Shown here one piece after another: positions 3,974 through 55,703 of a DNA stretch of 64,000 nt (position 1 is the stretch's first letter; each line of letters opens with the position of its first letter). The DNA is from Rubripirellula sp. (GTDB lineage Bacteria > Planctomycetota > Planctomycetia > Pirellulales > Pirellulaceae): NCBI GenBank assembly GCA_012270065.1, contig JAAXJB010000072.1:1-64000 (forward strand). Reading direction: 5' to 3'. The position numbers were made by a program, and so were the translations under genes. The notes below the pieces were generated by a model that made no database searches, was not told the origin of the DNA, and saw nothing but the letters and a program-made list of their open reading frames with translations.

Positions 3974-4205
3974 ATCATTGTTCTCCTAACCCGTGTTTCA
4001 GGCACCATAACAGGACAACCGTCACACTCCCGGGCACACCATGTCGGCCGCTTCCATTCATCCACCTGGGCACGACAGCACATACACATGACGATCATGC
4101 AAACGCAATCATCGAGGCAAGTCGCACTGACGTTCAACGTGGTCTTGTCCTGATCACAGGCTGATCTTGCAAGAACGTGCGGCCAGCCGATTGGAGTGTG
4201 AACAT

Positions 4206-8305: not shown

Positions 8306-8674
8306 GAATGATGATCCCAACTCTTTGGCGTGTGCTTGGAAAGCAGAAATTTCGGCAACCATTTCTGCGGTCACTGCTTGCGTGACAGTGTACCTGACTC
8401 CGAAGGCCGGATGCCACGATCAGCGGTGAGGATTTCAACCGAGGTATGCCGACAAAACCATTACCATTGGCGTTCAACGTGAAAACATGAAAAAGGCGGC
8501 CTTGAGGACGAAATCCGGCAGACGACCTCAAGGAAGCAGATGCATCGGAACCGGACGATGCGCAATCGAGATTCATTGCGTTATACTCTCAGGGATGCTT
8601 GCCAGCGGGAAACAGTTTTTCCGCAGAAAACGCGAGTCCCGCCCACATGATCTCCTGTCCAACCCTGAGGCAAG
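8306..8674. other. Divergent intergenic region
   Basis: The region lies between the minus-strand beta-helix gene and the plus-strand cytochrome gene and should hold promoters for both. Only the weak candidate at 8559-8587 could be pointed to. No gene is seen. Confidence 0.5.
8559..8587 (+). promoter_or_regulatory. Weak candidate promoter for the DUF1592 gene
   Basis: TATACT at 8582-8587 is a good -10 word about 88 bp before the ATG at 8675. The best -35 at 17-bp spacing (TGCGCA, 8559-8564) matches the consensus in only three positions, so this is tentative. Confidence 0.25.
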
Positions 8675-39808: not shown

Positions 39809-40003
39809 GACATCCAGGTCGTCGCTCTCTACCCGATCTCATCCTCCCTTGCGATATTCAACCGGCATCCCGAATGGGGCTTTTGGTTGAATCTGATTAC
39901 AATGTGGGCTGCGTGGTTCCATGCCCATTTTGAGTGTTACCACTCCAACCGGGCGGTGGCCTACAAAATCCAAGTGAATCAAACCGGTGCAGAAGGACCG
40001 AGG

Positions 40004-41275
40004 ATGAAGCGGCGAGCATTTTTGCGTGGTGTCAGCGGAGCGACCATGGCATTGCCAACTCTGGAGGCAATCGCGAGTTCAGAGAAAGTAACAGCCAGAC
40101 GGATGGTCTGTGTCGGACTGAACTTCGGCTTGGTACCCCAGCTTTTTTTTCCAACCACCACTGGAAAAGAGTACCAACTCACAGAGCGATTGCAGCCATT
40201 GAACAAGCTGCGCAAGGACTTCACTGTATTCTCAGGTTTGGATCACGGTACCGAAGCGCAAGGTGGACACGGCGGAGTGCATGCCTATCTGTCAGGGGTC
40301 CTCTCCAAACACTCTCGGAACATGCCTGAAGCCAACATTTCAGTGGACCAGAAAGCGGCGCAGCTGGTGGGATCACGCACACGCTATCCATCACTGCAGA
40401 TCGCCAGCGGCAATGACCCCAACAACCAGATTTCGTGGAGTGCATCCGGGGTGTCTCTCCCCCCAGTTTCGAAAGTCGATTTACTCTTCAACCTCCTGTT
40501 CCAGAAGGTTGATCCGCAACTTCGCAAAACCACTCAGGCAAAACAGGCAGCACGCACAAGCATCCTTGATCTTGTGAAAACCGATGCGCAGTATCTTCAT
40601 CGCAAGCTCGGGGCGCAGGACAGAGCCAAAATTGATCGTTACTTCACCACGGTAAGGGAAGTCGAAAAGCGGATTTCGCAGTCCAGCCAGTGGCTCGACA
40701 AGGCAAAACCCAATGTCGACTACAACCTGCCCGCAGATGCGAACAACATGAACTTTGTTGACCGTGTCCCGCTTTACTACGACCTGATGGCTCTTGCACT
40801 GGAAACAGATTCAACCCGGGTGATCACGCTGGGCCTGGCTGATATCGGAGCGAATTACGGTGGCTTCAAAATCAGTCGTGGTTACCATCAGCTGACTCAT
40901 CACGGTAAAGTGCCGGAATACATCACCGAACTTTCCGTGATTGAGCAATTCCACATGGAACAACTCACCCGCTTCCTGAATCGCCTCAAATCAGTGAGAG
41001 ACAATCACGGCAACACGTTACTTGACAGCACGATGGTGCTGTTCGGTTCCGGAATGGGAAATGCAAGTTCACACTCCAACAAGAATCTTCCACTGGTTCT
41101 GGCAGGAGGCGGCTTCCAACATGGTGAGCACAAGTCGTACTTCACTGGTGAAGGCAACAAGCGTTCTACTCCAGCAGGTCGTTTGTTTGTTTCGATGCTG
41201 CAACGCTTTGGTGTGGAAACAGATCGCTTTGGCACGGCCAGTGGAACGCTGCCCGGTCTGGAGCTGCAGACATGA
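40004..41275 (+). CDS. DUF1552 family protein, Tat-exported
   Basis: A 423-residue DUF1552 protein. The ATG at 40004 follows AAGGA at good spacing and gives the twin-arginine signal KRRAFLRGVSGATMALPTLEA; the frame is open further back but not protein-like. Landmarks: RRMVCVGLNFGLVPQLFFP, TVFSGLDHG, GGHGGVHAYLSGVLS, LGAQDRAKIDRYFTTVREVEKRI, GYHQLTHHG, and DSTMVLFGSGMGNASSHSNKNLPLVLAGGG. It is of a different subtype from the copies at 12459 and 18067: it has GMGNxSSH instead of xSTTH, and precedes its cytochrome. Its stop overlaps the next start by 4 bp (ATGA). It is the first gene of a five-gene operon. Confidence 0.93.
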   Translation: MKRRAFLRGVSGATMALPTLEAIASSEKVTARRMVCVGLNFGLVPQLFFPTTTGKEYQLTERLQPLNKLRKDFTVFSGLDHGTEAQGGHGGVHAYLSGVLSKHSRNMPEANISVDQKAAQLVGSRTRYPSLQIASGNDPNNQISWSASGVSLPPVSKVDLLFNLLFQKVDPQLRKTTQAKQAARTSILDLVKTDAQYLHRKLGAQDRAKIDRYFTTVREVEKRISQSSQWLDKAKPNVDYNLPADANNMNFVDRVPLYYDLMALALETDSTRVITLGLADIGANYGGFKISRGYHQLTHHGKVPEYITELSVIEQFHMEQLTRFLNRLKSVRDNHGNTLLDSTMVLFGSGMGNASSHSNKNLPLVLAGGGFQHGEHKSYFTGEGNKRSTPAGRLFVSMLQRFGVETDRFGTASGTLPGLELQT

Positions 41276-43992
41276 GAAAACGAGCAACACACCGAACCGG
41301 CACGACCAGTCAAGGCCAGACCAGCCCGAAAAGCCGAAGCAAGCCTGAAACACCTCACTGGCCACCAGCATCTGCAGGTCGTCGGTTCGCGTATGCATTA
41401 GCTACCCTGTGTTTCATCTCAATCCTTTTTCAACAAAAGCAGCTTCACGCCGAAACAGGCGAACAAACTGCAACCTCGGCTGAAAACGGACTCGCACCTC
41501 ACGTCCAGCAATATCTCAAGACTCACTGCCACCGTTGCCATGGCAACCAGAAGCAAAAAGCTGACCGGCGTCTTGATCAGTTCCCACGGAAAGGCAAGTT
41601 GAATGAGGAGCAAAGAGATCTGCTTGAAGAGGCGTTGGACGCGATGAACCGGGGCGAAATGCCGCCTCGTACAAACGACGGCAGTCCGCTGCCCACGGTT
41701 GCGGAAACGCGGAAAGTCATTTCAACCATCACCGCTTATCTTGATTCTGCAAACCAGGCTCAAAAACTGTCCACCACGATTCTCCGTCGACTCAATCGTT
41801 TTGAGTACGTGCGGACCATCAGGGACCTGCTTGGCGTTGACATCGACTCATTCGATCCGACGGGGGACTTTCCACCCGATGCGAAGCTACACGGATTTGA
41901 CAACAACGGTGAGGCCTTGACGCTTTCCGACTACCAATTGCAACGTTACGTGGAAGTCGCCGAAGCTTATCTGGATCAAGCTCTCTATTTTGATGAGCCA
42001 GCGCCCGAGCCAATCAGCTGGTCTTACACTGGAAGTGACTTCAACGGTGTTGTCTCGTATCAACGCGCACCGGTCACCTGGCGATTGATCGTCCCAGCGG
42101 GATCTCCTGCGAACCAACATGAACAGGGTGACTATATCGAAATCGGGCATGGACAACCGTCGGAACGTCATCCCACTTACGTCACCGATTTTGTCCGCCA
42201 CGGGGGTGTGCCAGCCGATGGTTGGTACGAAATCCAGATCAAGGCGGCGGCAGCCAACCGCCTCGATCACGGCTATGAGCACGTGGAATTCGACAGGTAC
42301 ATCAACGAACCGCTGAAACTCGCGTTATGGATCGCCCCCGAAGCACGCCTATTGAACAAGAACGCAGCAGACAAGCGGCGTCTTGCCAAAGTCTGGGACC
42401 TGCCAGATGGTCGACCCGATTCGTTCACAGCAAGAGTCTGGCTACGGAAAGGGGCCGTGCCATTTGTCAGCTGGGCCAATGGGATCAGTTCCAAAGGTAA
42501 CATCCGTCGAGTTGCGGAAAAGCACCATCCTGAGGTCATCCGGGCTACCACGACCCAACTGGACGCAGCGAAGCTTGGTGATCCAGAAGCTCAAGCGTTA
42601 GTAGAAAAACTTGCTCGTAATGAGAACAACCCATTGCTGTCGGAGCTTTACCAGGGACCGCGTGTTCGAATCTGGAACATGGATGTCTCCGGCCCGATAC
42701 ATGAGGACTGGCCACCTGTCAGCCACCAGCTTTTGTTCGGCGAACAAATGGACGCCACAAAAATCGACATTGATGAACTTGTGCTGCGTTTCGCAACCCG
42801 CGCTTTTCGTCAGCCTGTCAAACCAGAAGAGGTGAAACATTACGCCCAGTTTGTGCGTGACCGGATCGCCGCTGGCAATTCGCATCGGCGTGCGATCAAA
42901 CTGGGCCTGACCGCAATCCTGACATCACCACGTTTTCTTTATCTCGATGAGGGCAATGCTGATTCGGGCACTTCCCTGGGTTCCCATGAATTGGCAACCC
43001 GGCTGTCGTATTTCCTCTGGAGCTCAATGCCAGACGAAAAACTGTTTCAAAAAGCCAGCACGAACGAACTTTCGGAAGATGGACTACGCGACGAGACATT
43101 GCGTCTGCTCGCTGATCCCAAAGCGGTCGCGTTCGTGGAACACTTCACGGATCACTGGCTTCGAATTGACACCCTGGGAGCAATGCCACCAGATCCAAAA
43201 GCATTCGAGTCCTACTACAAAGATCGGCTTGAAACGTTCTTCAAGCAGGAAACAAGACTCTTCTTCACTGATCTACTCCAGCAAAATGGATCGATCCTGA
43301 ATCTGCTCGATAGTGATTACAGTTTTCTCAATGGCACGCTGGCACAGCATTATGGTGTAGAAGGCTTGACTGGGGAAGAATTCCGGAAAGTCAGATTCGA
43401 ACCAGAACACCATCGCGGTGGCTTGCTGGGACAGGGAAGCATTCTCACCCTGACTGCAAATGGAATTGAAACATCTCCGGTAGTTCGAGGAGTCTGGGTC
43501 ATGGAAAACATCCTTGGAACACCACCCTCGCCGCCACCTCCCGATGTAGAGCCTCTGGAACCCGATACGCGTGGTGCCGTGACCGTTCGTGACCAACTCA
43601 AGAAACACCGCAGTGTCGCTGCCTGTGCGGATTGTCATGACCGGATTGATCCCGCCGGTTTCGCGTTGGAGTTTTACGATCCGATTGGTGCCTACCGTTC
43701 ACACTACAAGTCACGCGCGTCCCGCAATCCGGCAGTAGACGGTTCCGGTACACTTGTGTCGGGTGAGTCGTTCAAAGATGAAACGGAATTCAAAAAACTG
43801 CTGCTTGCACGTAAAGACAGATTCACAGAAGCGCTCACGGCGAAACTGCTTTCCTATGCAACAGGCCGGGAAATGACATTCCGGGATGACGCAGAAATCA
43901 AAAGGATCGCTGCCGAGTGTGCGAAACAGGGGTACGGACTTCGAGATCTGATCTTGGGTGTTGTCGACAGCAAGGTCTTTCGCCAGCGTTAG
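41272..43992 (+). CDS. Giant diheme cytochrome, DUF1592 family
   Basis: A 906-residue protein translationally coupled to the DUF1552 gene (ATGA overlap). The N terminus is long and basic (about 36 residues) before a hydrophobic export segment (YALATLCFISILF). Domains: cytochrome with CHRCH at 86 followed by KQKADRRLDQ; DUF1587 about 172-240 (RRLNRFEYVRTIRDLLGVD); DUF1595 about 503-560 (TRAFRQPVKPEEV); DUF1592 about 568-690 (LATRLSYFLWSSMPDEKL); DUF1588 from about 715 with SPPPPDVEPLEPDTRGA and CADCH at 785 followed by DRIDPAGFALEFYD; DUF1585 about 850-906 (ATGREMTFRDD). It has the QKADRR element also seen in the copy at 45298. The downstream DUF1552 gene begins 31 bp later. Confidence 0.93.
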   Translation: MRKRATHRTGTTSQGQTSPKSRSKPETPHWPPASAGRRFAYALATLCFISILFQQKQLHAETGEQTATSAENGLAPHVQQYLKTHCHRCHGNQKQKADRRLDQFPRKGKLNEEQRDLLEEALDAMNRGEMPPRTNDGSPLPTVAETRKVISTITAYLDSANQAQKLSTTILRRLNRFEYVRTIRDLLGVDIDSFDPTGDFPPDAKLHGFDNNGEALTLSDYQLQRYVEVAEAYLDQALYFDEPAPEPISWSYTGSDFNGVVSYQRAPVTWRLIVPAGSPANQHEQGDYIEIGHGQPSERHPTYVTDFVRHGGVPADGWYEIQIKAAAANRLDHGYEHVEFDRYINEPLKLALWIAPEARLLNKNAADKRRLAKVWDLPDGRPDSFTARVWLRKGAVPFVSWANGISSKGNIRRVAEKHHPEVIRATTTQLDAAKLGDPEAQALVEKLARNENNPLLSELYQGPRVRIWNMDVSGPIHEDWPPVSHQLLFGEQMDATKIDIDELVLRFATRAFRQPVKPEEVKHYAQFVRDRIAAGNSHRRAIKLGLTAILTSPRFLYLDEGNADSGTSLGSHELATRLSYFLWSSMPDEKLFQKASTNELSEDGLRDETLRLLADPKAVAFVEHFTDHWLRIDTLGAMPPDPKAFESYYKDRLETFFKQETRLFFTDLLQQNGSILNLLDSDYSFLNGTLAQHYGVEGLTGEEFRKVRFEPEHHRGGLLGQGSILTLTANGIETSPVVRGVWVMENILGTPPSPPPPDVEPLEPDTRGAVTVRDQLKKHRSVAACADCHDRIDPAGFALEFYDPIGAYRSHYKSRASRNPAVDGSGTLVSGESFKDETEFKKLLLARKDRFTEALTAKLLSYATGREMTFRDDAEIKRIAAECAKQGYGLRDLILGVVDSKVFRQR

Positions 43993-44023: not shown

Positions 44024-45301
44024 ATGGCGTCCATTCCCAGACGCAACGTATTGCGAGGCTTGGGTATCGCAATCGCTTTGCCTGGCTTCGCTTCATTGAA
44101 GGCCGAATCCGTCAACGGATTGAATCGGTCAACCAGACGTTTTGTGTGTGTGTCACCCAATTACGGCATGAATCCTGCTGGTTTCTTTCCCACTCAAACG
44201 GGAAGTGAATACAGGATGCCAGACCTGCTCCAGTCTCTTGAATCACATCGGGAATCCCTGAGTCTGTTTACCAACCTCGATCATCCGGGCGTTGGTGGAG
44301 GACATGGCTGTTCCAACACCTTCTTGAATGGTGTTGAACTGAAAAACACCAAGGACGACCCACAGCGTCTGCTTTCTCTGGACCAGTTGCTCGCTGAGAA
44401 AATTGGGCAAAAGTCCAGATTCCCATCCATGCTACTGGGATCAGGCGGAATTTCATGGTCCCGAGCCGGAATCCGCCTGCCAACCCAAGCTGACCCGGTC
44501 AGCGTTTTCAACAGCCTGTTCGTGGACGATTCCGCGAAAGCAAAGCAACAGCAACGCAGATTCCTCGATGAGGACACCAGCATTCTTGATGTGGTTGGTG
44601 AGGATGCCCGAAGTCTCCGGCGACGTCTTGCACAAACCGATCAACAGAAACTTGATCAATACCTGACTTCCATCCGCGAAGTGGAACGGAAGCTGATCCG
44701 CCAGGCTGAATGGCTGGACATTCGCAAGCCAAGAGTCAAAGACGATGTGATTCGTGGTGGGGATGATGACGACACCATCGTTGACTTGCAGTATCCGTAC
44801 AACACTTCAGTCATGTACGACCTGATGGTTCTGGCCTTGCAGACAAATTCGACCAACGTCATCTGTTTTGGTCATCCTGGAGGAAATCGTCTGTTTCCCT
44901 TTGAAGGCATCACACTTGGCTATCATTCGCTGACGCACCATGGCAAGCGACCGGAGCTCCTGAAGGAGCTATCGATCATCGAACGTTTCTACGCCAAAGA
45001 GTTTTCTGCATTTCTCGGCAAACTGAAAGAGGCTCACGACACTGACGGCAGACCGCTGCTGGATTCAACGGCTGTCCTGTTTGGCAGTGGAATGGGCAAT
45101 GCAAGCTCACACTCCAGCCGAAATCTTCCTGTTCTTCTTGCTGGAGGCGGTTTCCGACATGGGAATCACCATCGCTTTGAACGTCACCAACGTGACGGAC
45201 GCCCTCTCGGTGACCTGTTTGTTTCGATCCTGCAACAGTTTGAAATCGAACAGGACCAATTTTCGAATCATGGTGGCAATCTCAATCATTTACTGACATG
45301 A
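44024..45301 (+). CDS. DUF1552 family protein, Tat-exported
   Basis: A 425-residue DUF1552 protein with the signal PRRNVLRGLGIAIALPGFASL and AAGGA before the ATG. Landmarks: RRFVCVSPNYGMNPAGFFP, LFTNLDHPGVGGGHGCSNTFLNG, LAQTDQQKLDQYLTSIREVERKL, GYHSLTHHGKRPELLKELSIIERF, and DSTAVLFGSGMGNASSHSSRNLPVLLAGGG. It is clearly the nearest relative of the copy at 40004, sharing the GMGNASSHS and THHGK motifs, and like it overlaps its downstream cytochrome by 4 bp (ATGA at 45298). The two units look like a tandem duplication that has since diverged. Confidence 0.93.
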   Translation: MASIPRRNVLRGLGIAIALPGFASLKAESVNGLNRSTRRFVCVSPNYGMNPAGFFPTQTGSEYRMPDLLQSLESHRESLSLFTNLDHPGVGGGHGCSNTFLNGVELKNTKDDPQRLLSLDQLLAEKIGQKSRFPSMLLGSGGISWSRAGIRLPTQADPVSVFNSLFVDDSAKAKQQQRRFLDEDTSILDVVGEDARSLRRRLAQTDQQKLDQYLTSIREVERKLIRQAEWLDIRKPRVKDDVIRGGDDDDTIVDLQYPYNTSVMYDLMVLALQTNSTNVICFGHPGGNRLFPFEGITLGYHSLTHHGKRPELLKELSIIERFYAKEFSAFLGKLKEAHDTDGRPLLDSTAVLFGSGMGNASSHSSRNLPVLLAGGGFRHGNHHRFERHQRDGRPLGDLFVSILQQFEIEQDQFSNHGGNLNHLLT

Positions 45302-47775
45302 ACAAATCGTTTTTCTGCGGCTTGATTTTTTGGCTGACGACGACCGGTTCCGCTGCTGAACACTCGCTCGCCGATATTGGCACGTTCCTGCGTGGTTACT
45401 GTATCGACTGCCACGGTGCTCAGACGCAAAAAGCTGACCGCCGCTTTGACGGATTGGCCGCCGGGCTCGTTGATGGAAAATCATCCACTGGGTTTCAGCA
45501 GGCAGACATGCTTCAGGAAATACTGGACCAGCTCAATCTGGCCGAAATGCCGCCGGAGGATGCAAAACAACCCGGTAACGATGAGATCAAACAGGTTGTT
45601 TCGTTACTCACAAAAACTCTGGCCGAAGCAAAGGTCGCAATGCGTGGTAACGCCGGAAAGGTCGTTTTGCGGCGACTCAATCGCAACGAATACCGAAACA
45701 CAATTCGCGATCTGTTCGAACTACCCATGGTCGATTTTGATCCAACCATTGCATTTCCCGCTGATGATGCCACCGATGGTTTTGACAATAATGGCGAGGG
45801 TCTGATTACATCTGATTACCTGCTTCGAAACTATCTTGCTGCCGCCCGGCAAATCGCCGACAAGGTGATTCGGCCGGGCCCGCGTCCCGAATTGATCCAT
45901 TACCATTCAGGACTCTCCTCTGATTCTGGACAAACGGCTGCCCGCAGCGGTGGATCGCCACTGCAATCAAACCCCACCGAAAGCTCCAGTGACAAAGAGG
46001 CCAGACAGGATGCAGGCCGGCTATTCATCAAGTTCCGTCAACCACTGGGAATACGGCAACTGGACAAACGCAAAGGAGTCCCCGCTGATGGCGAGTATGT
46101 GATACGGCTTTCGGCAAAAGCCGTCCGTCGCATGTCCCGCTACAAAGACGAGGACCTGAGATATGATTCCTCTGAACCCATGCGTTTATCGATCTCGATT
46201 GATTCACAGGCACTGGGTGGTACCGCCCACAGGATCATCGGTGAGTACACCATCCCTGACGATGAAGTGATCGAGATAGAGCATCGTGTATGGCTTGAAA
46301 AGGGCTTTACGTTTCATGTCCACTGGGCAAACGGTCCAAACGGTTCGTTCAAACGCATTCTTCGAAAGGTTCTACCCAAATACAACAAGGATGCGTTGTA
46401 CCCCATCCGGAATCCTCCGGAAATGTATCTTGGTTCAGGTCCTGAACTGCATGTTCATGGACTGGAAATCGAAGGGCCCTTTTATGATGCCTGGCCACAA
46501 CCCGGATTTGCCAGGTTTTTTCCGGATCCGCCAAATGCCCCGGATGCAGATTACCTGGACAAAGCTCTGCTTCGCCTTGCCAATGCTGCCTACCGAAGGC
46601 CGGTCACTCGCAAGGAAGCGAGCCCTTATCTTGAACTGGCTCGTCGACACTTGAAGGACAAGGGCGACTTCTGGGAGTCGGCAAAACTTGGAGTACGGGC
46701 AATCCTGACCTCTCCGAACTTTCTCTATCTGGCCGAAACACCACCAACTTCAACAGATTCGAATCAACTTACCAACCATGAACTTGCCAACCGCATGTCC
46801 TATTTCCTGTGGAGTTCAATGCCGGACAGTGAATTACGCTCCTTGGCCGATCGTGGTGCATTGAACGATCCGGATGTTCTGCAGGAACAGGTGGAACGAA
46901 TGCTGTCGGATCAACGTGTCGCTGCGTTTGTTGAAAATTTCGTTGGTCAATGGCTGGGACTTCGAAAGCTGGGTGAAATGCCACCAGACCCGGAAACCAA
47001 CCGTGCCTATTACGAAGACAATCTTGAAGATGCAATGCGTCAGGAAACGCTTCTGTTCTTTCGCCACATGCTCGATCAGAACCGTGAATTATCGGAATTC
47101 ATCGATTCTGATTACACGTTTTTGAACCAGGCGTTGGCTCGACATTACGATCTGCCAGTCCCGTCAGATGAAGCCTTTCACAAAGTCGATCTTCCGGCAG
47201 ACAGTCCTCGCGGAGGGCTGTTGGGACAGGCCAGCATTCTCACCGCCACCTCCAATGGCGTGGAATCTCAACCTGTCGTCCGAGGTGTCTGGGTCCTGAA
47301 TAATCTTCTTGGAAGCCCGCCGAATCCCCCGCCACCTGACATCGAACCACTTGAGCCTGACACCAGAGGTGTGTCCACCATCCGCCAATTGATGGAAAAG
47401 CACCGTGACAATCCCACGTGTTATGAGTGCCATCGGAAAATTGACCCTTTTGGACTGGCTCTGGAGAACTTTGATCACGTGGGCCAATGGCGAGACCGCT
47501 ACGCAAAGCGGTTGCCCATTGATGCCTCTGCATCGCTGGCGGGCGGTCAAGTGATTCAGGGTGTTGATGGAATCAAACAGTTATTGCAACTGAATCCAGA
47601 AAAGTTCAACCAGTGCCTGACAGAAAAGCTCATGACCTACGCACTGGGTCGGCGGCTCAGCTTCATCGACCGTGACGAAATCCAGCAGATCACAAGATCC
47701 GTTTCCAATGGAAAGCTTGGACTACGGGAGCTGATCCACCGGGTGGTAAACAGCAAGGCGTTCCAATCAAAATGA
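45298..47775 (+). CDS. Giant diheme cytochrome, DUF1592 family
   Basis: An 825-residue protein. Short signal peptide (1-20, ending GSAA), cytochrome domain with CIDCH at 35 followed by AQTQKADRRFDGL, NLAEMPPEDA about 80, DUF1587 about 125-190 (RRLNRNEYRNTIRDLFEL), DUF1595 about 420-480 (NAAYRRPVTRKEA), DUF1592 about 495-615 (LANRMSYFLWSSMPDSEL), DUF1588 from about 640 with NPPPPDIEPLEPDTRGV and CYECH at 708 followed by RKIDPFGLALENFD, and DUF1585 at about 770-825 (ALGRRLSFIDRDE). Both ends overlap neighbours by 4 bp (ATGA), so it is tied to the DUF1552 gene before it and to the sulfatase-like gene after it. Role unknown, probably electron transfer linked to the partner's substrate. Confidence 0.93.
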   Translation: MNKSFFCGLIFWLTTTGSAAEHSLADIGTFLRGYCIDCHGAQTQKADRRFDGLAAGLVDGKSSTGFQQADMLQEILDQLNLAEMPPEDAKQPGNDEIKQVVSLLTKTLAEAKVAMRGNAGKVVLRRLNRNEYRNTIRDLFELPMVDFDPTIAFPADDATDGFDNNGEGLITSDYLLRNYLAAARQIADKVIRPGPRPELIHYHSGLSSDSGQTAARSGGSPLQSNPTESSSDKEARQDAGRLFIKFRQPLGIRQLDKRKGVPADGEYVIRLSAKAVRRMSRYKDEDLRYDSSEPMRLSISIDSQALGGTAHRIIGEYTIPDDEVIEIEHRVWLEKGFTFHVHWANGPNGSFKRILRKVLPKYNKDALYPIRNPPEMYLGSGPELHVHGLEIEGPFYDAWPQPGFARFFPDPPNAPDADYLDKALLRLANAAYRRPVTRKEASPYLELARRHLKDKGDFWESAKLGVRAILTSPNFLYLAETPPTSTDSNQLTNHELANRMSYFLWSSMPDSELRSLADRGALNDPDVLQEQVERMLSDQRVAAFVENFVGQWLGLRKLGEMPPDPETNRAYYEDNLEDAMRQETLLFFRHMLDQNRELSEFIDSDYTFLNQALARHYDLPVPSDEAFHKVDLPADSPRGGLLGQASILTATSNGVESQPVVRGVWVLNNLLGSPPNPPPPDIEPLEPDTRGVSTIRQLMEKHRDNPTCYECHRKIDPFGLALENFDHVGQWRDRYAKRLPIDASASLAGGQVIQGVDGIKQLLQLNPEKFNQCLTEKLMTYALGRRLSFIDRDEIQQITRSVSNGKLGLRELIHRVVNSKAFQSK

Positions 47776-49082
47776 AAAGGCTGACCAGACTATTTCTCCT
47801 CACAATTGCCTTCATGGTGAACACACCCCAAGGCCATGCCGGGGATGCTCCCAACATCATTTTGATTCTGGTTGAAGGCATGAGTCGTGATTCGATCGGT
47901 TGCTACGGATCCGGCCAACCGACTCATCATATCGATCAACTTGCAAAATCCGGCGTCCGGTTCGAGACGGTGTGGAGCATGGCGGCCGACACACCGACGG
48001 TTGTCACTCTTTTGACCGGACAATATCCGTTCCGGCATGGCTGGACCCAACATTACGACCTGCCTCAATTTGGTGTCCATGGCTTGAACGCCGAACGCTT
48101 TGCCACAATGGCAAGGTTCCTCAATGACCGTGGTTACAAGACGGTCATTGGTGGACATTGGCGGATCAATGATCTCAACAGACAGCCAGATGCTCTGCAA
48201 CAACACGGCTTTCAGGAATCTTGTGTTGCTGTTGAAACACCAACGGAAAACAGCGGCACCGACACCAGTGATGCTACGCTACTCATCAATGGAAAAACGC
48301 AGGTCGTCAAAAATCAGGTGGAACGAGTGAGTTCATTTCTGAACGACTTTGTACAACGGAATCACGACCAACCATTCTTCATTTACTACCCAATGCTGAC
48401 TGAAGGATTCGCACCAAACCATCCAGAAACAGCGGACTTAAAAAAGCACCGAAAAGGAAAACAGAGCAAAAACGCTGCCTTCGGGATCAAACGAATCGAT
48501 CAGTTGATTGGCAACTTGCTGGACGCCGTGAAGTCGGCTGGTCACGAAGAAAACACAGTCATCCTGCTAACTGGCATGAACGCAACCACAATCGGCAGTT
48601 CTCAGACGCGTGATGAAGAGGCACTCGACCACGTGGTATCGGACCAGACGTTGCGTGTACCCCTGATTGTTCGAGCGCCAAACATTTCCAGTGGAAACCG
48701 GGTGTCGCCGGACTTGATTGACTTCACCGATTTTTTACCTACGGTGCTTGAATTTGCCGGGCTGCAACCAGAACGCCAGCCCCAGCTGGATGGAAGATCA
48801 TTTGTCCCCAGCCTGCTTGGCAGCGAAGATCCATTTCAGAAACGCAGTTGGATCCATGCCCAACTTGGCAAGCTTCGAATGGTGCGTGACTGGGAACACA
48901 TGATCGACACAAACAACAGGTTCCATGATCTTCTGGAAGATCCAGAACAGCAGCAGGAAATTAACCCACTCGACAAAATTGCACCGGGACGGCGTCAGCG
49001 TTTACAGATGATCATGGATCGTTTTCCAAAGGATGCGGCCGGTCCATTCCCACAAGGCAATCAGAATCCGGGAGACAGATAA
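47772..49082 (+). CDS. Sulfatase-fold protein lacking the catalytic residues
   Basis: A 436-residue exported protein with an evident sulfatase fold but a dismantled active site. Signal peptide (1-24, ending HAG), then NIILILVEGMSRDSIGCYG, where the usual metal-binding Asp-Asp is Glu-Gly. At the formylglycine site the family CxPSRxxLLTG reads DTPTVVTLLTG: Asp73 replaces Cys and Val77 replaces Arg, while YPFRHG right after is conserved. The late region TVILLTGMNATTIG lacks the Asp-Asn/His pair and the Lys of GGKG. It cannot work as a classical sulfatase, so a binding, scaffolding or altered hydrolase role is inferred. The fold-level hallmarks DFLPTVLEFAGL and RVPLIVRAP are intact and the frame is open, arguing against a pseudogene. 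It is the last gene of the operon and overlaps the cytochrome by 4 bp. Confidence 0.85.
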   Translation: MKRLTRLFLLTIAFMVNTPQGHAGDAPNIILILVEGMSRDSIGCYGSGQPTHHIDQLAKSGVRFETVWSMAADTPTVVTLLTGQYPFRHGWTQHYDLPQFGVHGLNAERFATMARFLNDRGYKTVIGGHWRINDLNRQPDALQQHGFQESCVAVETPTENSGTDTSDATLLINGKTQVVKNQVERVSSFLNDFVQRNHDQPFFIYYPMLTEGFAPNHPETADLKKHRKGKQSKNAAFGIKRIDQLIGNLLDAVKSAGHEENTVILLTGMNATTIGSSQTRDEEALDHVVSDQTLRVPLIVRAPNISSGNRVSPDLIDFTDFLPTVLEFAGLQPERQPQLDGRSFVPSLLGSEDPFQKRSWIHAQLGKLRMVRDWEHMIDTNNRFHDLLEDPEQQQEINPLDKIAPGRRQRLQMIMDRFPKDAAGPFPQGNQNPGDR

Positions 49083-49447: not shown

Positions 49448-52429
49448 ATGCTGTTCCGTTTCATCGTTTTACAATTCATCTGCTGTCTGCCGTTTGCCGG
49501 TGCATTCGGTGAGACGTCTGATGTTTTATTTGAAACACACATCAAGCCTGTGTTCCAGGCCAAATGTGGAAAGTGTCATCGGGAAAATGAACGCAAAGGT
49601 GGGCTCGATCTGTCCAGCATGAAAGGTCTGCACGCCGGTGGCGAGACAGGGGATGAACTTCTCACTGCTGTATTGGAAGACAATGCGCTGTGGCATCAAA
49701 TCGAACAGGGGGAAATGCCACCCGAGGGTGAACCGGCACTCCGAGAAAAGGAGCGTCGACTGATCCGAAGCTGGATTCTCGCTGGCTGCCCTTCCAAAAC
49801 CAAAATCGAAAATACGCACGAACTGACTCAACATGACGTGCTTCCGATTCTGCTACTCCGTTGCAATGCCTGCCATGGACCGCAGCTTCAGCAGGGAGAA
49901 CTCGATTTACGGACGCTGGCAGGCATGCTGCGTGGTGGAAAGAGTGGCCCGGCTCTGGTTTCAGGAGATCCTGACAGCAGTCTGATGATTCAACGTATCG
50001 AAACACAGGCTTGCCCTCCCAGTGAGTCACTGCTGAAGTTCTTTGTTCGTCGACCTTCGACAGCCGAAGTAAAAACCCTGCGAGATTGGATTGCTGCCGG
50101 GGCGCCGGAGGGCGAGGTCGAACCTGATGTAGCGACCACGTCGAACGATCCGCTCGTAAGCCCGAACGATCGCGCGCACTGGGCATTCCAGCCACCAAGT
50201 TGGCCAGACACTGGAAATTCAATTGATGATTTCGTGGGCCAGAAATTGACTGAAGCGGGGCTCACCTGGTCGATGCCGGCAGATCGGCACACCCTGATTC
50301 GACGTGTTTACCTCGATCTTTTGGGCATGCCACCAGAACTGGACGAATTGGAACGTTGGGCGTCGAGCAAAGATCGAAACTGGTACAGCAGGATGATTGA
50401 CCACGTGCTGTCATCGCCACGCTACGGCGAACGCTGGGGAAGATACTGGCTTGATTTGGCAGGATACGCTGACTCGGAAGGCGGGATCAGTGCCGACCCG
50501 CTGCGACCAGTTGCATGGAAATACCGTGACTACGTCATCGAGGCTTTCAATGAGGACAAACCTTATGATGAATTCCTGATCGAGCAACTTGCAGGTGATG
50601 AACTGCTCGGTCAATCGGGTTCGAAAACGGTGACCGATGACACCATTGAGAAACTCGTTGCGACAGGTTTTCTTCGCATGGGCATCGACGAGACAGGTTC
50701 AAGAACCATGAACTTTGTCCCCGAACGGCTGAAAGTTGTCGCCGATGCAATCTCGGTTGTAAGCTCAGGATTGATGGGCTTGACCATGGAGTGTGCACGG
50801 TGCCATTCGCATAAGTACGATCCAATTCCGCAACGCGACTATTATCGCTTGAAAGCCGTTTTCCAGGGTGCTCTGGACGAACACGACTGGAGCAGTTTCA
50901 AACAGCGGAAACTGAACCTTGCTACGGAAACGCATCAGGCACAGATCGCACGGTTCAACCCACCGTTGGAGAAACAGCAAAAACGTCTGGTCGCACGTCA
51001 AAAGGAACTTGAAGCAGAAATCCGCCTGAACCTGCTGCGACATCATCATCCTGATCAGTCGGAAACAGACAATCAGACGACGCTTCGGGCACTTCGAAAA
51101 GCAGACAACACGCGAACCCTCATCGAAAAAAAGCTGGTTGAGCGATTGCAAAAGGCAGAGTTGATACCTGATTCCATGCAACCGACAAATGTCCTGAAAG
51201 ACCGGACTGAAGCAGAACAGGTGAGAAAAGACCTGCATCGGCTACGTCAACGGATGATCCCCCCCAAAACCATCCGGGCATTGTGGGATCAAGGACGTCC
51301 CTCACCAACTTACGTACTCAGGCGTGGTGAACATGACAAACCGGGTACGCTCGTGGGGCCTGGAGTACCAAGTGTACTGACCGATGGCAAAACGCCATTT
51401 GAAGTGACCCCGGTTAAAGCTGCTTCACATTTGGGTGCTTACACGAGCACTGGACGGAGACTTGCGTTTGCCAAGTGGCTGACGTCCCCTGATCATCCCC
51501 TGACAGCACGCGTCATGGTCAACCGCATCTTTGCGAAGCACTTTGGAACCGGCCTGGCTTCCGATCCTGGAAATTTCGGGCGTCAGGCTGAACCACCATC
51601 ACACCCCCAACTCCTCGATTGGCTCGCCCTGAAATTCATCCACAGTGGCTGGAGCATCAAAGCCATGCATCGCTTGATGATGAATTCGAGAACCTACCAG
51701 CAGTCCAGTCGGGTAACAGCCAAACATCACCAGATTGATGCAACGAACCGGTTTCTGGCTCGAATGCCACTTCAACGTCTGGACGCCGAGGCTCTTCGCG
51801 ATTCACTTCTTTTTGTTTCCGGGCGAATGTCCCTGAAATCCGGCGGCATCCCGGACGCGGTCTCGGTTAGTCGAAATGGCATGGTGAGTGTTTACCCCAG
51901 CGAAGAAAACAATCATGCGGCAACTCATGCCGACAATGGTATCGCATCCATTCAAACTGCAAGTGGCAAGTCTGACAGTCGGGAAGCGGCCACCATTGCA
52001 AAGTCCGAAATCGATGCCTGCTGGCGGCGAAGCATTTATCTTCAGTACCGTCGCACCGAAATCGCGACCATGATGGACACCTTTGACTACCCGCAAATGG
52101 GGCCGAACTGCCTGGACAGATCGGTTTCAACTGTGTCTCCGCAAGCATTGATGATGCTCAACGACAAACACGTGCATACACTGTCCCTGTCGTTTGCCAA
52201 TCGGATCATCAACATGATCAAAAACCGTGGTTTGAATGACAGCAATCGCACACGTGTCGACCTGGTTTATCGCATGGCTCTCAGTCGGCCCGCAGATCCT
52301 CAGGAAATCGAATTTGGCGACGATTCTCTGAGAAAGCTAACCAATTCATGGCACGGTGATGAAACAAAAGCGTTGGCGACCTACTGCCATACAATTTTCA
52401 ACACAGCAGCCTTCCTTTATGTGGACTGA
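49448..52429 (+). CDS. PSCyt1/DUF1549/DUF1553 triheme-motif cytochrome
   Basis: A 993-residue exported protein of the second Planctomycete cytochrome class. Signal peptide (1-21, ending GAFG) is followed by a PSCyt1 domain with CGKCH at 40 and GEMPPEG, a second cytochrome domain with CNACH at 139 and GDPDSSLMIQRI, then DUF1549 (about 260-460: FVGQKLTEAGL, RRVYLDLLGMPPEL, YGERWGRYWLDLAGYADSEG) ending with CARCHSHKYDPI at 449. A charged helical stretch (about 490-600, rich in Lys, Gln, Glu) may be a coiled coil. DUF1553 follows (about 640-990: GRRLAFAKWLTSPDHPLTARVMVNRIFAKHFG, SVYLQ-type RRSIYLQYRRTE). It is directly followed by its usual DUF1501 partner with no spacing. Confidence 0.93.
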   Translation: MLFRFIVLQFICCLPFAGAFGETSDVLFETHIKPVFQAKCGKCHRENERKGGLDLSSMKGLHAGGETGDELLTAVLEDNALWHQIEQGEMPPEGEPALREKERRLIRSWILAGCPSKTKIENTHELTQHDVLPILLLRCNACHGPQLQQGELDLRTLAGMLRGGKSGPALVSGDPDSSLMIQRIETQACPPSESLLKFFVRRPSTAEVKTLRDWIAAGAPEGEVEPDVATTSNDPLVSPNDRAHWAFQPPSWPDTGNSIDDFVGQKLTEAGLTWSMPADRHTLIRRVYLDLLGMPPELDELERWASSKDRNWYSRMIDHVLSSPRYGERWGRYWLDLAGYADSEGGISADPLRPVAWKYRDYVIEAFNEDKPYDEFLIEQLAGDELLGQSGSKTVTDDTIEKLVATGFLRMGIDETGSRTMNFVPERLKVVADAISVVSSGLMGLTMECARCHSHKYDPIPQRDYYRLKAVFQGALDEHDWSSFKQRKLNLATETHQAQIARFNPPLEKQQKRLVARQKELEAEIRLNLLRHHHPDQSETDNQTTLRALRKADNTRTLIEKKLVERLQKAELIPDSMQPTNVLKDRTEAEQVRKDLHRLRQRMIPPKTIRALWDQGRPSPTYVLRRGEHDKPGTLVGPGVPSVLTDGKTPFEVTPVKAASHLGAYTSTGRRLAFAKWLTSPDHPLTARVMVNRIFAKHFGTGLASDPGNFGRQAEPPSHPQLLDWLALKFIHSGWSIKAMHRLMMNSRTYQQSSRVTAKHHQIDATNRFLARMPLQRLDAEALRDSLLFVSGRMSLKSGGIPDAVSVSRNGMVSVYPSEENNHAATHADNGIASIQTASGKSDSREAATIAKSEIDACWRRSIYLQYRRTEIATMMDTFDYPQMGPNCLDRSVSTVSPQALMMLNDKHVHTLSLSFANRIINMIKNRGLNDSNRTRVDLVYRMALSRPADPQEIEFGDDSLRKLTNSWHGDETKALATYCHTIFNTAAFLYVD

Positions 52430-53914
52430 ATGACCTTGGAACGAAAGCCAGTTTCTTCGCGCCGGGATTTTTTTGCTCGCACCAGTGATGGGCTCCTCGG
52501 TGCTGCGCTGCTCCAGCTACTCACCAGTGATGTTCACGCGGATCGTCCGCCAAAGGCAGCATCCGAAAAAGCGATTGGATCAGACAGCTCAAATCGCACT
52601 TCCAACTATGACCTGAGTCCCAAACCCGGACACCACAAGCCAACTGCCACCTCAGTGATTCAATTGTTCATGAATGGTGGCCCCAGCCAGATGGATCTGT
52701 TCGATCCAAAGCCGGCGTTGGACAAACTCGATGGCAAACCTTACCCCGGCAGCATCGAAGAGATTGGTAATACCAACGTGAGTGACATTGGCGTCATGAT
52801 GGGTGGCCGATACCCCATCCAGCGACATGGCGAATCAGGAATGTGGATGGCAGACACGCTCCCGCACACGTCAAAGATGGTTGACGAAATCTGCATGATC
52901 AATTCGATGTGGACTGATCATCCAAATCACGACAACGCGCTCTATAAAATCCACAGTGGAAGACTGTTCATGGGATACCCAACGCTGGGTGCATGGACAG
53001 CCTATGGCCTGGGCTCAGAAAACCAGAATCTGCCAGCTTACGTTGTGCTGGGAGATCCTCTCGGATTACCCAAGAATGGAACGCGCAACTGGACTTCCGG
53101 TTTCCTGCCTCCCGTCTACCAAGGCACACCTTTCCGCCCCAGCGGATCACCGATCCTCAATCTGCGCAAACAATATGAGCAACCCTCTGAGGTATCCCTC
53201 ACGGCCAGCGAGATGCTGAAACAACTTGATGAGAAACATCGCTCACGACGCCCACATCAGGGGATGCTTGACGCAAGAATCGAATCCTATGCCCTTGCCG
53301 CACGAATGCAATTGACTGCAAATGAAGCGCTTGACCTGAACCTTGAAAGTGCCGAAACGCTGCGGTTATACGGTGTGGGTGAGCCCCACACGGACTCCTA
53401 CGCAAAACGCTGCCTGATGGCGCGTCGTTTGGTAGAGCGTGGTGTGCGATTTGTACAGATATTTCTGGAAGAGCAACCTTGGGACAGTCACGTTGACCTG
53501 GCATCCAATCACCGAGCCATCTGTCAGCGAACCGACAAACCAGTCGCAGCATTGCTGCAGGATCTGAAACGCAGCGGCTTGCTCGATAACACCCTCGTAA
53601 TTTGGGGTGGAGAGTTCGGACGGACACCGACTTCCCAACGCTCAGGTGACATATACACCGGCCGGGATCACAACATGCAGGCCTTTTCCACATGGATGGC
53701 AGGTGGTGGAGTCAAAGGTGGAATGAGTTACGGAAAAACCGACGACTTTGGCCACAAAGTGATCGAGAATCCTGTCAGTGTTCATGACTTCCATGCCACG
53801 ATCCTTCATATGCTTGGACTCCACCATCAGGAACTGTTCTTTCTTCGAAGTGGACTTGAAGAACGCCTGACCGGAGTCAAAATTCCATCAGTGGTCCACG
53901 ACATTCTGAGCTGA
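52430..53914 (+). CDS. DUF1501 family protein, Tat-exported
   Basis: A 494-residue DUF1501 protein, the expected partner of DUF1549/1553 cytochromes. A twin-arginine signal (SSRRDFFARTSDGLLGAALLQLL) starts the protein; its ATG follows the upstream TGA with zero spacing. Landmarks: VIQLFMNGGPSQMDLFDPKP, GESGMWMADTLPHTSKMVDEICMI, SMWTDHPNHDNA, ARRLVERGVRFVQIFL, and near the C terminus DNTLVIWGGEFGRTP and GRDHNMQAFSTWMAGGGVKGG. The family belongs to the alkaline phosphatase/sulfatase superfamily and retains several possible metal ligands (Asp/His), so a hydrolase is possible, but no activity is established. The amidohydrolase-like genes follow 29 bp later. Confidence 0.93.
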   Translation: MTLERKPVSSRRDFFARTSDGLLGAALLQLLTSDVHADRPPKAASEKAIGSDSSNRTSNYDLSPKPGHHKPTATSVIQLFMNGGPSQMDLFDPKPALDKLDGKPYPGSIEEIGNTNVSDIGVMMGGRYPIQRHGESGMWMADTLPHTSKMVDEICMINSMWTDHPNHDNALYKIHSGRLFMGYPTLGAWTAYGLGSENQNLPAYVVLGDPLGLPKNGTRNWTSGFLPPVYQGTPFRPSGSPILNLRKQYEQPSEVSLTASEMLKQLDEKHRSRRPHQGMLDARIESYALAARMQLTANEALDLNLESAETLRLYGVGEPHTDSYAKRCLMARRLVERGVRFVQIFLEEQPWDSHVDLASNHRAICQRTDKPVAALLQDLKRSGLLDNTLVIWGGEFGRTPTSQRSGDIYTGRDHNMQAFSTWMAGGGVKGGMSYGKTDDFGHKVIENPVSVHDFHATILHMLGLHHQELFFLRSGLEERLTGVKIPSVVHDILS

Positions 53915-53943
53915 CAATCTGACCTGATATTCTGGAGCAGATC

Positions 53944-54855
53944 ATGGCGATACATCGACGCCAAGTGATACAGGGTGCTGTCACAGCGGGGGCCGCATCA
54001 CTTGTGGCCTCCCGCGGAAATGGCGAGATATCGCCCCCGGCTCCCAGGATGCCGCCCCGGGTGATCGACACCAACATCAGCCTGTTTTCGTGGCCATTTC
54101 GGCGACTGCCGTTGGATAATGTGGATGACCTGTGCTCGAAACTACAGCAAATCGGAATTACGGAGGCGTGGGCAGGCAGCTTTGAAAGCTTGCTGCATCG
54201 TGATCTCAGATCTGTCAACGAACGTCTTATCAATGCATGCCAGAACCATTCAATCCTGATTCCCGTCGGAGCAGTCAACCCGAATCTTCCTGACTGGAAT
54301 CACGATCTTGAACTTTGTCTCGGCCATCATGGGATGCCCGGCGTCAGACTACTTCCGGGATATCACCACTACGAACTGAAAGACCAAGCTTTTGGTGCGC
54401 TGCTCGCGAAAGCGACCGAGTTGGGTGGTTTTGTCCAAATCGCAATGACGTTGGAAGATGCTCGTACACAATCAGATCTTGTGCGGGCAGACAACATCGA
54501 TTTAAAGCCTCTCAAAAAGTGGATGCAGCAGATCCCCAAGGCCAGAGTTCAAATCCTGAATTGCCGCCCTACCGCCGCCGACATAAAAACATTCGAATCG
54601 ACGCCACGACTCACGCTTGATACATCAAGAGTGGAGGGAACTGATGGCCTCTCGAATCTTGCGTCTTCCATTGGTAGTGAACGTTTACTATTTGGCTCAC
54701 ACTCACCATTTCTGATTCCAGAAGCATCGTGCATTCGAATCCTTGAAAATGGACTCCCGGCAGAAATGATTCCAGCAATCATGCTGGCAAACGCCAAACG
54801 TTTTTGCAACGTCCAAGACAGCCACACCGAAGATCACCCAAGGTCAACCAGATGA
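53944..54855 (+). CDS. Amidohydrolase-2-like protein, Tat-exported
   Basis: A 303-residue protein with the TIM-barrel layout of amidohydrolase 2 (COG2159). The signal HRRQVIQGAVTAGAASL marks Tat export, and GGAG precedes the ATG. The barrel begins VIDTNISLFSWPFRRLP, where the metal-binding HxH normally after Asp-Thr is Asn-Ile-Ser. Further family features are ITEAWAGSFESLLHRD, GAVNPNLPDWNHDLELCL, MPGVRLLPGYHHYEL and ERLLFGSHSPFLIPE, where the usual FGSD is FGSH. The loss of canonical metal ligands suggests altered metal use or no hydrolysis. It overlaps the next amidohydrolase-like gene by 4 bp and follows the cytochrome/DUF1501 pair, so it is likely part of the same function. Substrate unknown. 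Confidence 0.82.
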   Translation: MAIHRRQVIQGAVTAGAASLVASRGNGEISPPAPRMPPRVIDTNISLFSWPFRRLPLDNVDDLCSKLQQIGITEAWAGSFESLLHRDLRSVNERLINACQNHSILIPVGAVNPNLPDWNHDLELCLGHHGMPGVRLLPGYHHYELKDQAFGALLAKATELGGFVQIAMTLEDARTQSDLVRADNIDLKPLKKWMQQIPKARVQILNCRPTAADIKTFESTPRLTLDTSRVEGTDGLSNLASSIGSERLLFGSHSPFLIPEASCIRILENGLPAEMIPAIMLANAKRFCNVQDSHTEDHPRSTR

Positions 54856-55703
54856 ACTTTGGCTTACCCTCTGCACAGGAACTTCGCAAATACAGAATTT
54901 GGGACTCCTACTTCACTCCGGCTTTTTCGCATCCCGGCTCTGATGGCAGTTGCGACCTGATCAGTGATATCGAGAAGTCGATGCGTGCCATTGAATTGGG
55001 GCAATTCGAAAAACTCTGTTTCTTTCCGCATGTCGGAATTGGCACGACCAGCGATAAAAAACTCGAACAGACTCTGCGCGAAAAACCTGCGTTGATATCA
55101 CAACCGCTGAAACGTTGGCCAAAGCGACTGTTCGGAATGATTCAACTCAATTTACAGAATCCGGAAGACTCCCTGATGGCATTGGAACAATGGGTGCAAA
55201 ATGGTCCGATGCGTGGAGCCTACTTTCCCGGAAGTGGGCCGGGAGCAGCCAACTGTCTTGACCCAAAAGTCCTGGCTGTGGTTGAAAAAGTCGCAAAAAC
55301 CGGTGGCCTGATCATGCAGCACACCTGGCTGAAAACCGGTGGCAAGAGATCGCCCCATGAATCAACCCCAGCAGAACTTGCAATTCTGGCATCGCGATAT
55401 CCAAAGCAGTCATTCATCTGTGCTCACGCCGGAGGAGAATGGGAACAGGGCATCCGTGCGCTTCGCAACACACCCAATGTGTTCATTGAAACATCAGGCT
55501 TTGACGCAACTGCCGGATTCATTGAAATGGCTACGCGTGAACTGGGATCAAGGCGAATCGTATTCGGAAGTCATCTGCCGTCCAGATCTCTGGGAACTGA
55601 ACTCTCGAAGGTAATCACAGCCAGAATCACGGAACAGGAAAAACAGGACATACTCGGAGGAAACTACCGCAGGATTCTTGGTATCACTGCGCCCAACAGG
55701 TAG
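54852..55703 (+). CDS. Amidohydrolase-2-like protein
   Basis: A 283-residue barrel protein related to the preceding gene. The ATG at 54852 overlaps the upstream stop (ATGA), and no signal peptide is evident, unlike its partner. It begins with YRIWDSYFTPAFSHPG, in which the HxH of active amidohydrolases is replaced by Ser-Tyr-Phe. It continues with GGLIMQHTWLKTGG, SFICAHAGGEWEQGI (one retained His), NVFIETSGFD and RRIVFGSHLPSRSLG, again with FGSH for FGSD. These shared changes suggest a subfamily with its own chemistry. The two amidohydrolase-like proteins may form a heteromer; if the second really lacks export, it would have to ride out with the Tat-exported partner or act in the cytoplasm. 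Confidence 0.8.
   Translation: MNFGLPSAQELRKYRIWDSYFTPAFSHPGSDGSCDLISDIEKSMRAIELGQFEKLCFFPHVGIGTTSDKKLEQTLREKPALISQPLKRWPKRLFGMIQLNLQNPEDSLMALEQWVQNGPMRGAYFPGSGPGAANCLDPKVLAVVEKVAKTGGLIMQHTWLKTGGKRSPHESTPAELAILASRYPKQSFICAHAGGEWEQGIRALRNTPNVFIETSGFDATAGFIEMATRELGSRRIVFGSHLPSRSLGTELSKVITARITEQEKQDILGGNYRRILGITAPNR

Follow-up and report, generated by a model that had tools for sequence, protein, structure and literature searches.

A sulfatase with a lost catalytic site retained beside DUF1552 and DUF1592 genes in Rubripirellula sp.

The window, the whole stretch of 64,000 nucleotides analysed here, encodes an S1-type sulfatase whose catalytic site is lost. Its family occupies a constant gene neighbourhood and is retained along with its partner across genomes, and in relatives of the window protein's clade selection is relaxed on the N-terminal but not on the C-terminal part. 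This regional pattern of constraint, together with retention of the gene, points to a non-catalytic function. The reading we favour, to which we give about an even chance, is that the C-terminal module is the reason why a catalysis-dead sulfatase persists, as a putative non-catalytic partner of the DUF1552 and DUF1592 proteins. The genes concerned are:

39887-41275, + strand: first DUF1552 gene of the row (open reading frame, Pfam)
41272-43992, + strand: DUF1592a, same row, forming with the first DUF1552 the unit 39887..43992 (open reading frame, Pfam)
44024..45301, + strand: DUF1552 (HXXSHH) protein, second partner (Pfam, neighbourhood comparison)
45298..47775, + strand: DUF1592 protein with a PSCyt1 cytochrome-type domain (DUF1592b), constant upstream partner (open reading frame, Pfam, neighbourhood comparison)
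47772..49082, + strand: pseudo-sulfatase gene, 436 aa, S1-sulfatase fold (open reading frame, Pfam match, structure model and superposition)
49448..55703, + strand: DUF1549/1553, DUF1501 and two amidohydrolase-family genes, downstream (open reading frame, Pfam, neighbourhood)

Fold and catalytic site of the window protein

The sulfatase reading frame (47772-49082, +) starts with ATG and is open over 436 codons. Its product scores 114.9 bits against PF00884 (Pfam Sulfatase; cut-off 25), and its structure model (pLDDT 82.5, pTM 0.87) follows the sulfatase fold along the whole chain. Superposition on active sulfatases, proposed by the first-pass annotation, gave a whole-fold match with VIA-align: 6hr5 (S1_25) was the best hit (Z 38.3, 2.9 A, 347 residues), a rank shared with 6psm (S1_19) and others. 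This confident model argues for a complete S1-sulfatase fold, and the annotated intactness of fold landmarks and frame holds in Pfam match, model and reading frame alike. The N-terminus looks like a signal peptide, and the protein is probably exported.

Site positions were read from an alignment of the window protein with its family relatives:

47874..47879, + strand: Glu35-Gly36 at the metal-binding Asp-Asp position (alignment with relatives)
47988..48002, + strand: Asp73-Thr-Pro-Thr-Val77 at the formylglycine motif CxPxR, CTPTR in intact orthologues (alignment)
48576..48581, + strand: Met269-Asn270 at the late metal pair Asp-Asn, with the Asn kept (alignment)

Where active-looking relatives carry DD, CxPxR, K, H, D and K, the window protein has E35-G36, D73-TPT-V77, H129, G212, M269 and D286. 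Asp73 aligns with the formylglycine Cys and Val77 with the motif Arg, so that these two substitutions, like Glu-Gly for the first Asp-Asp, are as originally annotated. His129 occupies the Lys position of GKW, Met269 takes the place of the late metal Asp, and Gly212 and Asp286 fall in the His and late Lys columns, the least certain assignments because these columns sit in gappy stretches. The annotation had also counted the late Asp-Asn/His and Lys as missing, which is right for the Asp (Met269) and the Lys (Asp286), but the Asn persists as N270, in an invariant column. As for the His, the residue two past the GKW Lys, Arg131 here, is Gln in 17/17 intact or nearly intact relatives and 15/15 outgroups, and its absence there is therefore normal for the group. 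The window protein thus carries DTPTV at 73-77 in place of (C/S)xPxR, and E35-G36 and M269-N270 in place of the metal ligands Asp-Asp and Asp-Asn. Lacking Cys/Ser, Arg and metal ligands, it should not have formylglycine sulfatase activity.

Such loss does not appear to be a general habit among the aligned sulfatases of this genome, which holds at least 150 sulfatase, 58 DUF1552 and 87 DUF1501 matches. In 48 other sulfatases, the 47 lowest-scoring of the 150 listed matches plus one more in the window, the Cys is present in 48/48, the Arg in 46/48 and the late Asp in 47/48, the remaining one having Glu. Since the listed matches, 150 of 251 first-look candidates, reach down to 141.6 bits and all outscore the window protein, this genome may contain further damaged sulfatases.

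The linked family and the spread of site damage

The family comprises 34 loci with a sulfatase gene behind a DUF1552-DUF1592 pair. All 34 loci have DUF1592b upstream on the sulfatase's own strand, with one intervening ORF in L019 and directly adjacent in the window, where the sulfatase start overlaps the stop of the DUF1592 gene by 4 nt. The same 4-nt overlap occurs in 27/34 loci, including L015 and L173 after start trimming, and this together with the linkage at every locus confirms the annotated operon coupling. DUF1552 is found upstream in 30/34; at the remaining four the contig stops before that position. Some intact loci (L019, L022, L193, L198) have a DUF1592a-like gene upstream as well, and the downstream DUF1549/1553-DUF1501-amidohydrolase arrangement is common to the window clade (five loci, plus L172 up to its contig end). 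In a tree with 15 outgroup sulfatases, the 34 rows form one clade with 100/100 support, the tree covering part of the near-scoring sulfatases, to the exclusion of L199 and L201 for example. Profile A1 gives clear members 404-800 bits, L185 357, and the best outside sulfatases 381 and 379; because these scores have no sharp edge, the family was bounded by gene context and tree.

Across 240 genomes, a DUF1592b orthologue (E <= 1e-200) was detected in 21, and 20/21 also carry the family sulfatase gene. In the last one, G261, the locus position runs off the contig on that side; no family member scored above the search threshold anywhere in this assembly, which may therefore be a genuine exception. 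G229 has an intact sulfatase beside broken partner genes.

The catalytic site is complete in 14 of the 34 loci, nearly complete in 3 and damaged in 17, with substitutions that differ among damaged copies. The search for DTPTV homologues beside DUF1592/DUF1552 genes, suggested earlier, returned none other: of the 34 members, the window protein alone has the motif, which rules out a conserved DTPTV pseudo-sulfatase family. Homologues with a normal site in the same operon context, named by the first-pass annotation as evidence against its proposal, do exist, as the 14 complete loci carry CTPTR and the full site. Complete sites in this very position indicate that the loss came late in a family of active-looking enzymes, whose intact members presumably cleave sulfate esters. 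Parsimony on the family tree counts 6 state changes, 3 of them forced by well-supported branches. An AU test rejected grouping L018 together with the clade of ten damaged members (p 0.019); joining L173/L174 to that clade was not rejected (p 0.59), nor was uniting all 15 strongly damaged rows in one clade (p 0.10). Branches are long for some of the damaged rows on this tree.

Within the window clade, K129, H212 and D269 are missing in 6/6 members and the Cys is still present in 4/6, suggesting that the former were probably lost first and the Cys last. The ancestor would have been an active formylglycine-dependent S1 sulfatase encoded with one particular DUF1552-DUF1592 pair, and sulfate cleavage would have been lost in the window's lineage. 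The annotation had raised the possibility of a new chemistry, a site rebuilt with Asp73 and His129 for another reaction. Both residues are polar at former active-site positions, and His129 occurs in 5/6 clade members. By contrast, an Asp73 equivalent is found in 0/33 other family members, the metal ligands D35, D36 and D269 are lost, and the clade has no new conserved polar set; the nine residues invariant in its six proteins and rare in intact ones (Q49, A72, A168, L171, N197, L266, S290, L331, I378) do not look like a catalytic set. We regard this possibility as very improbable.

Regional constraint and the C-terminal module

Sulfatase conservation was compared with that of its neighbours at 14 intact and 12 damaged loci, setting apart L015, L017, L180, L018, L172, L174, L181 and L183, where one of the three genes is cut, split or missing. 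In 91 intact pairs, the sulfatase and DUF1592b are conserved to the same degree (75.2 and 74.4% identity). Compared with the intact loci, the window sulfatase falls 19.6 identity points below its own DUF1592b, and seven other damaged sulfatases fall 13.1-21.1 points below theirs (8/12 damaged loci measured, including the window), whereas four damaged copies (L021, L185, L195, L196) show little or no acceleration. Two parts of the protein were distinguished:

47844..48671, + strand: former catalytic part, residues 25-300, relaxed (regional dN/dS in clade relatives, invariant-position count)
48672..49031, + strand: C-terminal module, residues 301-420, proposed docking part (family-specific residues, regional dN/dS)

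Six non-independent pairs of the clade relatives L169-L172 gave dN/dS values of 0.18-0.36 (residues 25-150), 0.35-0.49 (151-300) and 0.05-0.11 (301-420), compared with 0.04-0.08, 0.06-0.18 and 0.04-0.12 in 7 intact pairs; all pairs were hand-chosen, and WIN/L009 (saturated) and L183/L184 (no dS) were unusable. The contrast rests on these four relatives because silent change between the window protein and its sister is saturated (dS 2.7); for that pair, the N/C ratio of differences per site is 1.51, inside the intact-pair range of 0.68-1.55. The damaged pair L173/L174 has no contrast (0.20, 0.25 and 0.19 by region), but with only 18 differences in residues 25-420. Silent sites of residues 301-420 are free to vary (dS 0.54-2.05 across the six clade pairs), so the constraint acts on the protein, and an RNA-level element was set aside. 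Catalytic residues lost in an active-looking family, with purifying selection acting on the protein, qualify the window protein as a predicted pseudoenzyme.

The window protein itself retains 41/46 of the positions invariant in 15 intact relatives within residues 301-420, and 82/138 within 25-300. A set of 31 residues is shared by 90% of the 27 family rows compared but by no more than 25% of the 15 outgroups, and 23 of these lie within 301-420; when defined without the window protein the set numbers 33, of which that protein keeps 28, including 22/24 in 301-420. For the family-specific residues, the 12-row damaged set stands without L018, L021, L185, L195 and L196, and the 15-row intact set without L188 (masked stretch) and L198 (partial).

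Relaxed selection had been named in advance as a sign against the pseudoenzyme; it is seen in residues 25-300 of the four clade relatives, but not in their residues 301-420, and the window frame is open. Gene decay, in which an unneeded sulfatase slowly disappears within a co-transcribed row, would explain the lower conservation relative to neighbours, the raised dN/dS in residues 25-300 and the different residues lost in different copies. It is unlikely given a frame open over 436 codons, since simulated unconstrained copies of the sister gene close fast (8/300 open at 0.1 changes per site, 0/300 at 0.3), and we reject it as the main reading on C-terminal constraint equal to that of intact enzymes and on retention in all partner-bearing genomes but the one whose contig runs out. 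Equally improbable is that the old cleft binds a sulfated glycan without cutting it, as had been suggested. The modelled fold, an organism rich in sulfatases and residues 25-150 still below neutrality are consistent with it, but the substitutions at cleft positions, those of the sulfate-contacting Lys and His included, differ from one clade member to another, and residues 151-300, the least constrained part, drift, leaving this suggestion unsupported.

The C-terminus could also serve the protein's own folding, export or self-association, in which case its present role would have nothing to do with the neighbours. The module does belong to the sulfatase fold, and contact with DUF1552/DUF1592 is deduced indirectly; however, its conserved residues mark the DUF1592-linked family and are rare in the 15 related sulfatases, and the gene goes along with its partner across genomes, so we give this explanation a small chance. 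Taken together, a scaffold or partner role, also among the annotation's suggestions, best fits the fold, the open frame and the DUF1552/DUF1592 linkage; binding to the partners we infer. The protein would be retained because residues 301-420 have an additional, non-catalytic task, which most likely is to hold or stabilise the DUF1552 and DUF1592 proteins.

More tentatively, and with rather less than even confidence, the window protein may be required, as a non-catalytic subunit, in an exported complex where DUF1552 is the working hydrolase, DUF1592/PSCyt carries a cytochrome-type domain and the C-terminal module serves for docking; the sulfatase would have been reduced, perhaps repeatedly, to an assembly part and nothing else. 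DUF1552 is apparently a distant sulfatase relative: its profile resembles DUF1501 and, more weakly, sulfatases. A separate profile comparison with sulfatases, made with a narrow DUF1552 alignment, gave a probability of 3.7. A PDB sequence search with DUF1552 gave no credible match, and its structure model has a pLDDT of 40.5.

Significance and relation to known systems

A dead sulfatase that remains linked to one DUF1552-DUF1592 pair allows a partner role to be told apart from a catalytic one and assigns the candidate partner role to a definite stretch, residues 301-420. According to PMC5615132, the roles of planctomycete-specific proteins were unknown as of 2017; the assembly-subunit reading, if true, would offer a first handle on the function of the abundant planctomycete DUF1552/DUF1592 proteins. 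As PF00884 scores the dead window protein well above its cut-off, sulfatase counts include dead proteins and need caution as a basis for judging polysaccharide diets. Open-licence PMC text yielded no paper on DUF1592 together with DUF1552 and, in the portions available, none on a sulfatase pseudoenzyme of the window type.

The closest comparison is with the orthologous CTPTR sulfatases L010, L011 and L019 (respectively 49, 50 and 47% identical along most of the protein), which share the window gene's position, with an overlapping start in L010 and L011, and its C-terminal family residues. Unlike the window protein, they retain the whole catalytic site and match their neighbours in conservation. 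With the S1 formylglycine-dependent sulfatases at large (PF00884; SulfAtlas S1), the window protein shares the whole fold, but it lacks the Cys/Ser and the motif Arg, and of the metal ligands just one Asn is left. Putatively inactive S1 sulfatases of Planctomycetes and Lentisphaera, with the motif Arg replaced by Ile or Leu, are mentioned in PMC5066984; they include proteins from the same phylum as the window protein. L294 and L304 of this genome, outside the window family, resemble that type, with Leu and with Cys and metal residues kept. A more distant parallel is the Dis3/RNase II family, in which, according to PMC8097288, pseudonucleases evolved repeatedly: there too, inactive members arose in an active enzyme family and took another role, although these are fungal RNA-binding proteins of an unrelated enzyme family.

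The window gene and its active site

The open reading frame at 47772-49082 (+) encodes a protein of 436 aa and is the fifth of a gene row. Its start falls within the stop codon that ends the preceding DUF1592 gene (45298-47775).

Gene row ending in the sulfatase-like gene
39887-41275, DUF1552, gene 1
41272-43992, DUF1592a, gene 2
44024-45301, DUF1552, gene 3
45298-47775, DUF1592b, gene 4
47772-49082, + strand, sulfatase-like, gene 5

On its 3' side, a gap of 365 nt is followed by DUF1549/1553, DUF1501 and two amidohydrolase-family genes. The N-terminus of the protein looks, by eye, like a signal peptide. The Pfam Sulfatase profile matches the protein with 114.9 bits, and its predicted model is a complete sulfatase (pLDDT 82.5) on which solved sulfatases superpose, 6hr5 (Z 38.3, 2.9 A, 347 residues) being tied with others.

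An alignment of the protein to its 33 orthologues and another 15 sulfatases was read with the residue roles known from the arylsulfatase A literature. The site of intact orthologues, D-D, C-T-P-T-R, K, H, D-N and K, reads E35-G36, D73-T-P-T-V77, H129, G212, M269-N270 and D286 in the window protein. The replacements listed by the first-pass annotation are thus borne out, except that Asn270 of the late pair, given there as missing, is still present. Arg131, two residues past the GKW Lys, says little, since intact relatives also lack His there and all carry Gln.

A family linked to DUF1592

Genome contigs were scanned and relatives searched, yielding 34 distinct family loci, which the tree separates with full support from the 15 outgroup sulfatases. 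Every one of the 34 has DUF1592b upstream in the same orientation, immediately adjacent in 33 of them. In 30 loci DUF1552 lies farther upstream still, and the contigs of the remaining four (L015, L172, L174, L181) end before that point. None of the six non-family sulfatases whose surroundings were inspected (L186, L187, L199-L202) has such neighbours. The first-pass annotation had named homologues with a normal CxPxR motif in the same context as the case against its reading, and these exist: the site is complete in 14 of 34 loci (L010, L011, L013-L017, L019, L020, L022, L179, L180, L193, L198), complete apart from a single residue or a masked segment in three (L012, L178, L188), and damaged in 17. 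A divergent member, L185 (G004, 3919-5181), carries STPAR, and its C-terminus, which extends to the contig end, seems unrelated.

Members chosen by score and context are present in 22 of 241 genomes of the window's taxonomic family. At E <= 1e-200, a DUF1592b orthologue was found in 21 of 240 genomes of that taxonomic family, 20 of which also hold the sulfatase gene; in one of these, G014, the DUF1592b and sulfatase matches lie on separate contigs, with a DUF1592b fragment at the contig edge beside the sulfatase. In the 21st, G261, the contig ends on the side expected to hold the sulfatase, and no family member lies elsewhere in the genome above the family-search threshold. Two genomes have the sulfatase and no DUF1592b match at this cut-off: in G107 the contig begins inside DUF1592b, and in G229 (L180, contig of 7.1 Mb, 4698-9622) the case is reversed, DUF1552 and DUF1592b being split into several overlapping frames beside a complete sulfatase site.

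Site loss and the retained C-terminal module

The window protein groups with L009 and L169-L172 (six rows, support 100/98). K129, H212 and D269 are absent from all six, and Cys is kept in four, Arg in three and Asp-Asp in one; because the first three are gone throughout and Cys is left in four, metal and sulfate binding were probably lost ahead of the nucleophile. D73 is a step private to the window protein; elsewhere in the family, Cys is replaced by Gly, Glu, Ala, His, Phe, Leu or Ser. Parsimony places six activity-state changes on the tree, of which strong branches force three, and of three groupings put to the AU test a single one was rejected, the joining of L018 to the ten-member damaged clade (p 0.019). 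L018 (7983-9305) is an orthologue with GTPSR, its nucleophile changed, apparently recently, and the remaining listed site intact.

Comparing intact loci in 91 pairs gives 75.2% identity for the sulfatase, a level of conservation equal to that of DUF1592b (74.4%) and close to that of DUF1552 (78.6%). Between the window locus and the intact set, by contrast, the values are 46.8%, 66.5% and 71.0%. Seven further damaged loci show the same lag; among the 12 measured, L021, L185 and L195 show none and L196 a mild one. For the sulfatase, whole-gene dN/dS (NG86) spans 0.23-0.31 among the five damaged pairs whose dS can be read, against 0.09-0.16 in intact pairs, with 0.05-0.13 for partner genes. By region, six pairs among L169-L172 and seven intact pairs, non-independent within each set, give 0.18-0.36 against 0.04-0.08 (residues 25-150), 0.35-0.49 against 0.06-0.18 (151-300) and 0.05-0.11 against 0.04-0.12 (301-420). 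In a count restricted to non-overlapping pairs, residues 25-300 hold 448 amino-acid differences and residues 301-420 hold 115 across five damaged pairs, the corresponding numbers for six intact pairs being 232 and 93 (Fisher p 0.0066); the three window-clade pairs alone give 299 and 75 (p 0.010). However, the damaged pair L173/L174, with 18 differences across residues 25-420, lacks such a contrast, and the per-site ratio for the window protein against L009, 1.51, falls inside the intact range of 0.68-1.55.

At positions that never vary among 15 intact orthologues, the window protein retains the residue in 54/76 (25-150), 28/62 (151-300) and 41/46 (301-420), and L184, one of the most decayed, does so in 28/76, 28/62 and 37/46. 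Since 23 of the 31 residues marking the family against 15 other sulfatases also fall in 301-420, the C-terminal module is both the family hallmark and the portion outlasting catalytic loss.

A proposed bifunctional ancestor and its neighbours

The data are most economically explained by a bifunctional ancestor, a sulfatase with a C-terminal module that would additionally have served the DUF1552/DUF1592 proteins. Once sulfate chemistry was no longer important, the catalytic part would drift, with module and gene retained. We infer that the module binds the DUF1552/DUF1592 partners. By hhalign, the DUF1552 (44024-45301) and DUF1501 (52430-53914) profiles are related to each other at a probability of 97.7 across 353 columns, and each also matches sulfatases along roughly 100 columns (probabilities 82.3 and 91.8). 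This suggests membership of DUF1552 in the sulfatase superfamily; the neighbour of the dead sulfatase may therefore be a remote relative within that superfamily and have an activity of its own. In the same profile comparison, DUF1592 matches none of DUF1552, DUF1501 or sulfatases. A weaker DUF1552-sulfatase alignment, from a separate profile comparison, lands on the late metal-site region. In PMC5615132, PSCyt genes are described as frequently near sulfatases and of unknown function.

The window genome (7.0 Mb) holds 58 DUF1552, 87 DUF1501 and at least 150 sulfatase matches. Among 48 other sulfatases aligned (the 47 lowest-scoring of 150 listed, plus one), Cys is present in all, the motif Arg in 46 and the late Asp in 47, so the window protein's loss is unusual for its genome. 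Leu replaces Arg in the remaining two, L294 and L304 (contigs C88 and C34; CRPAL/CRPSL), which retain the metal residues and resemble sequences mentioned as putatively inactive in PMC5066984.
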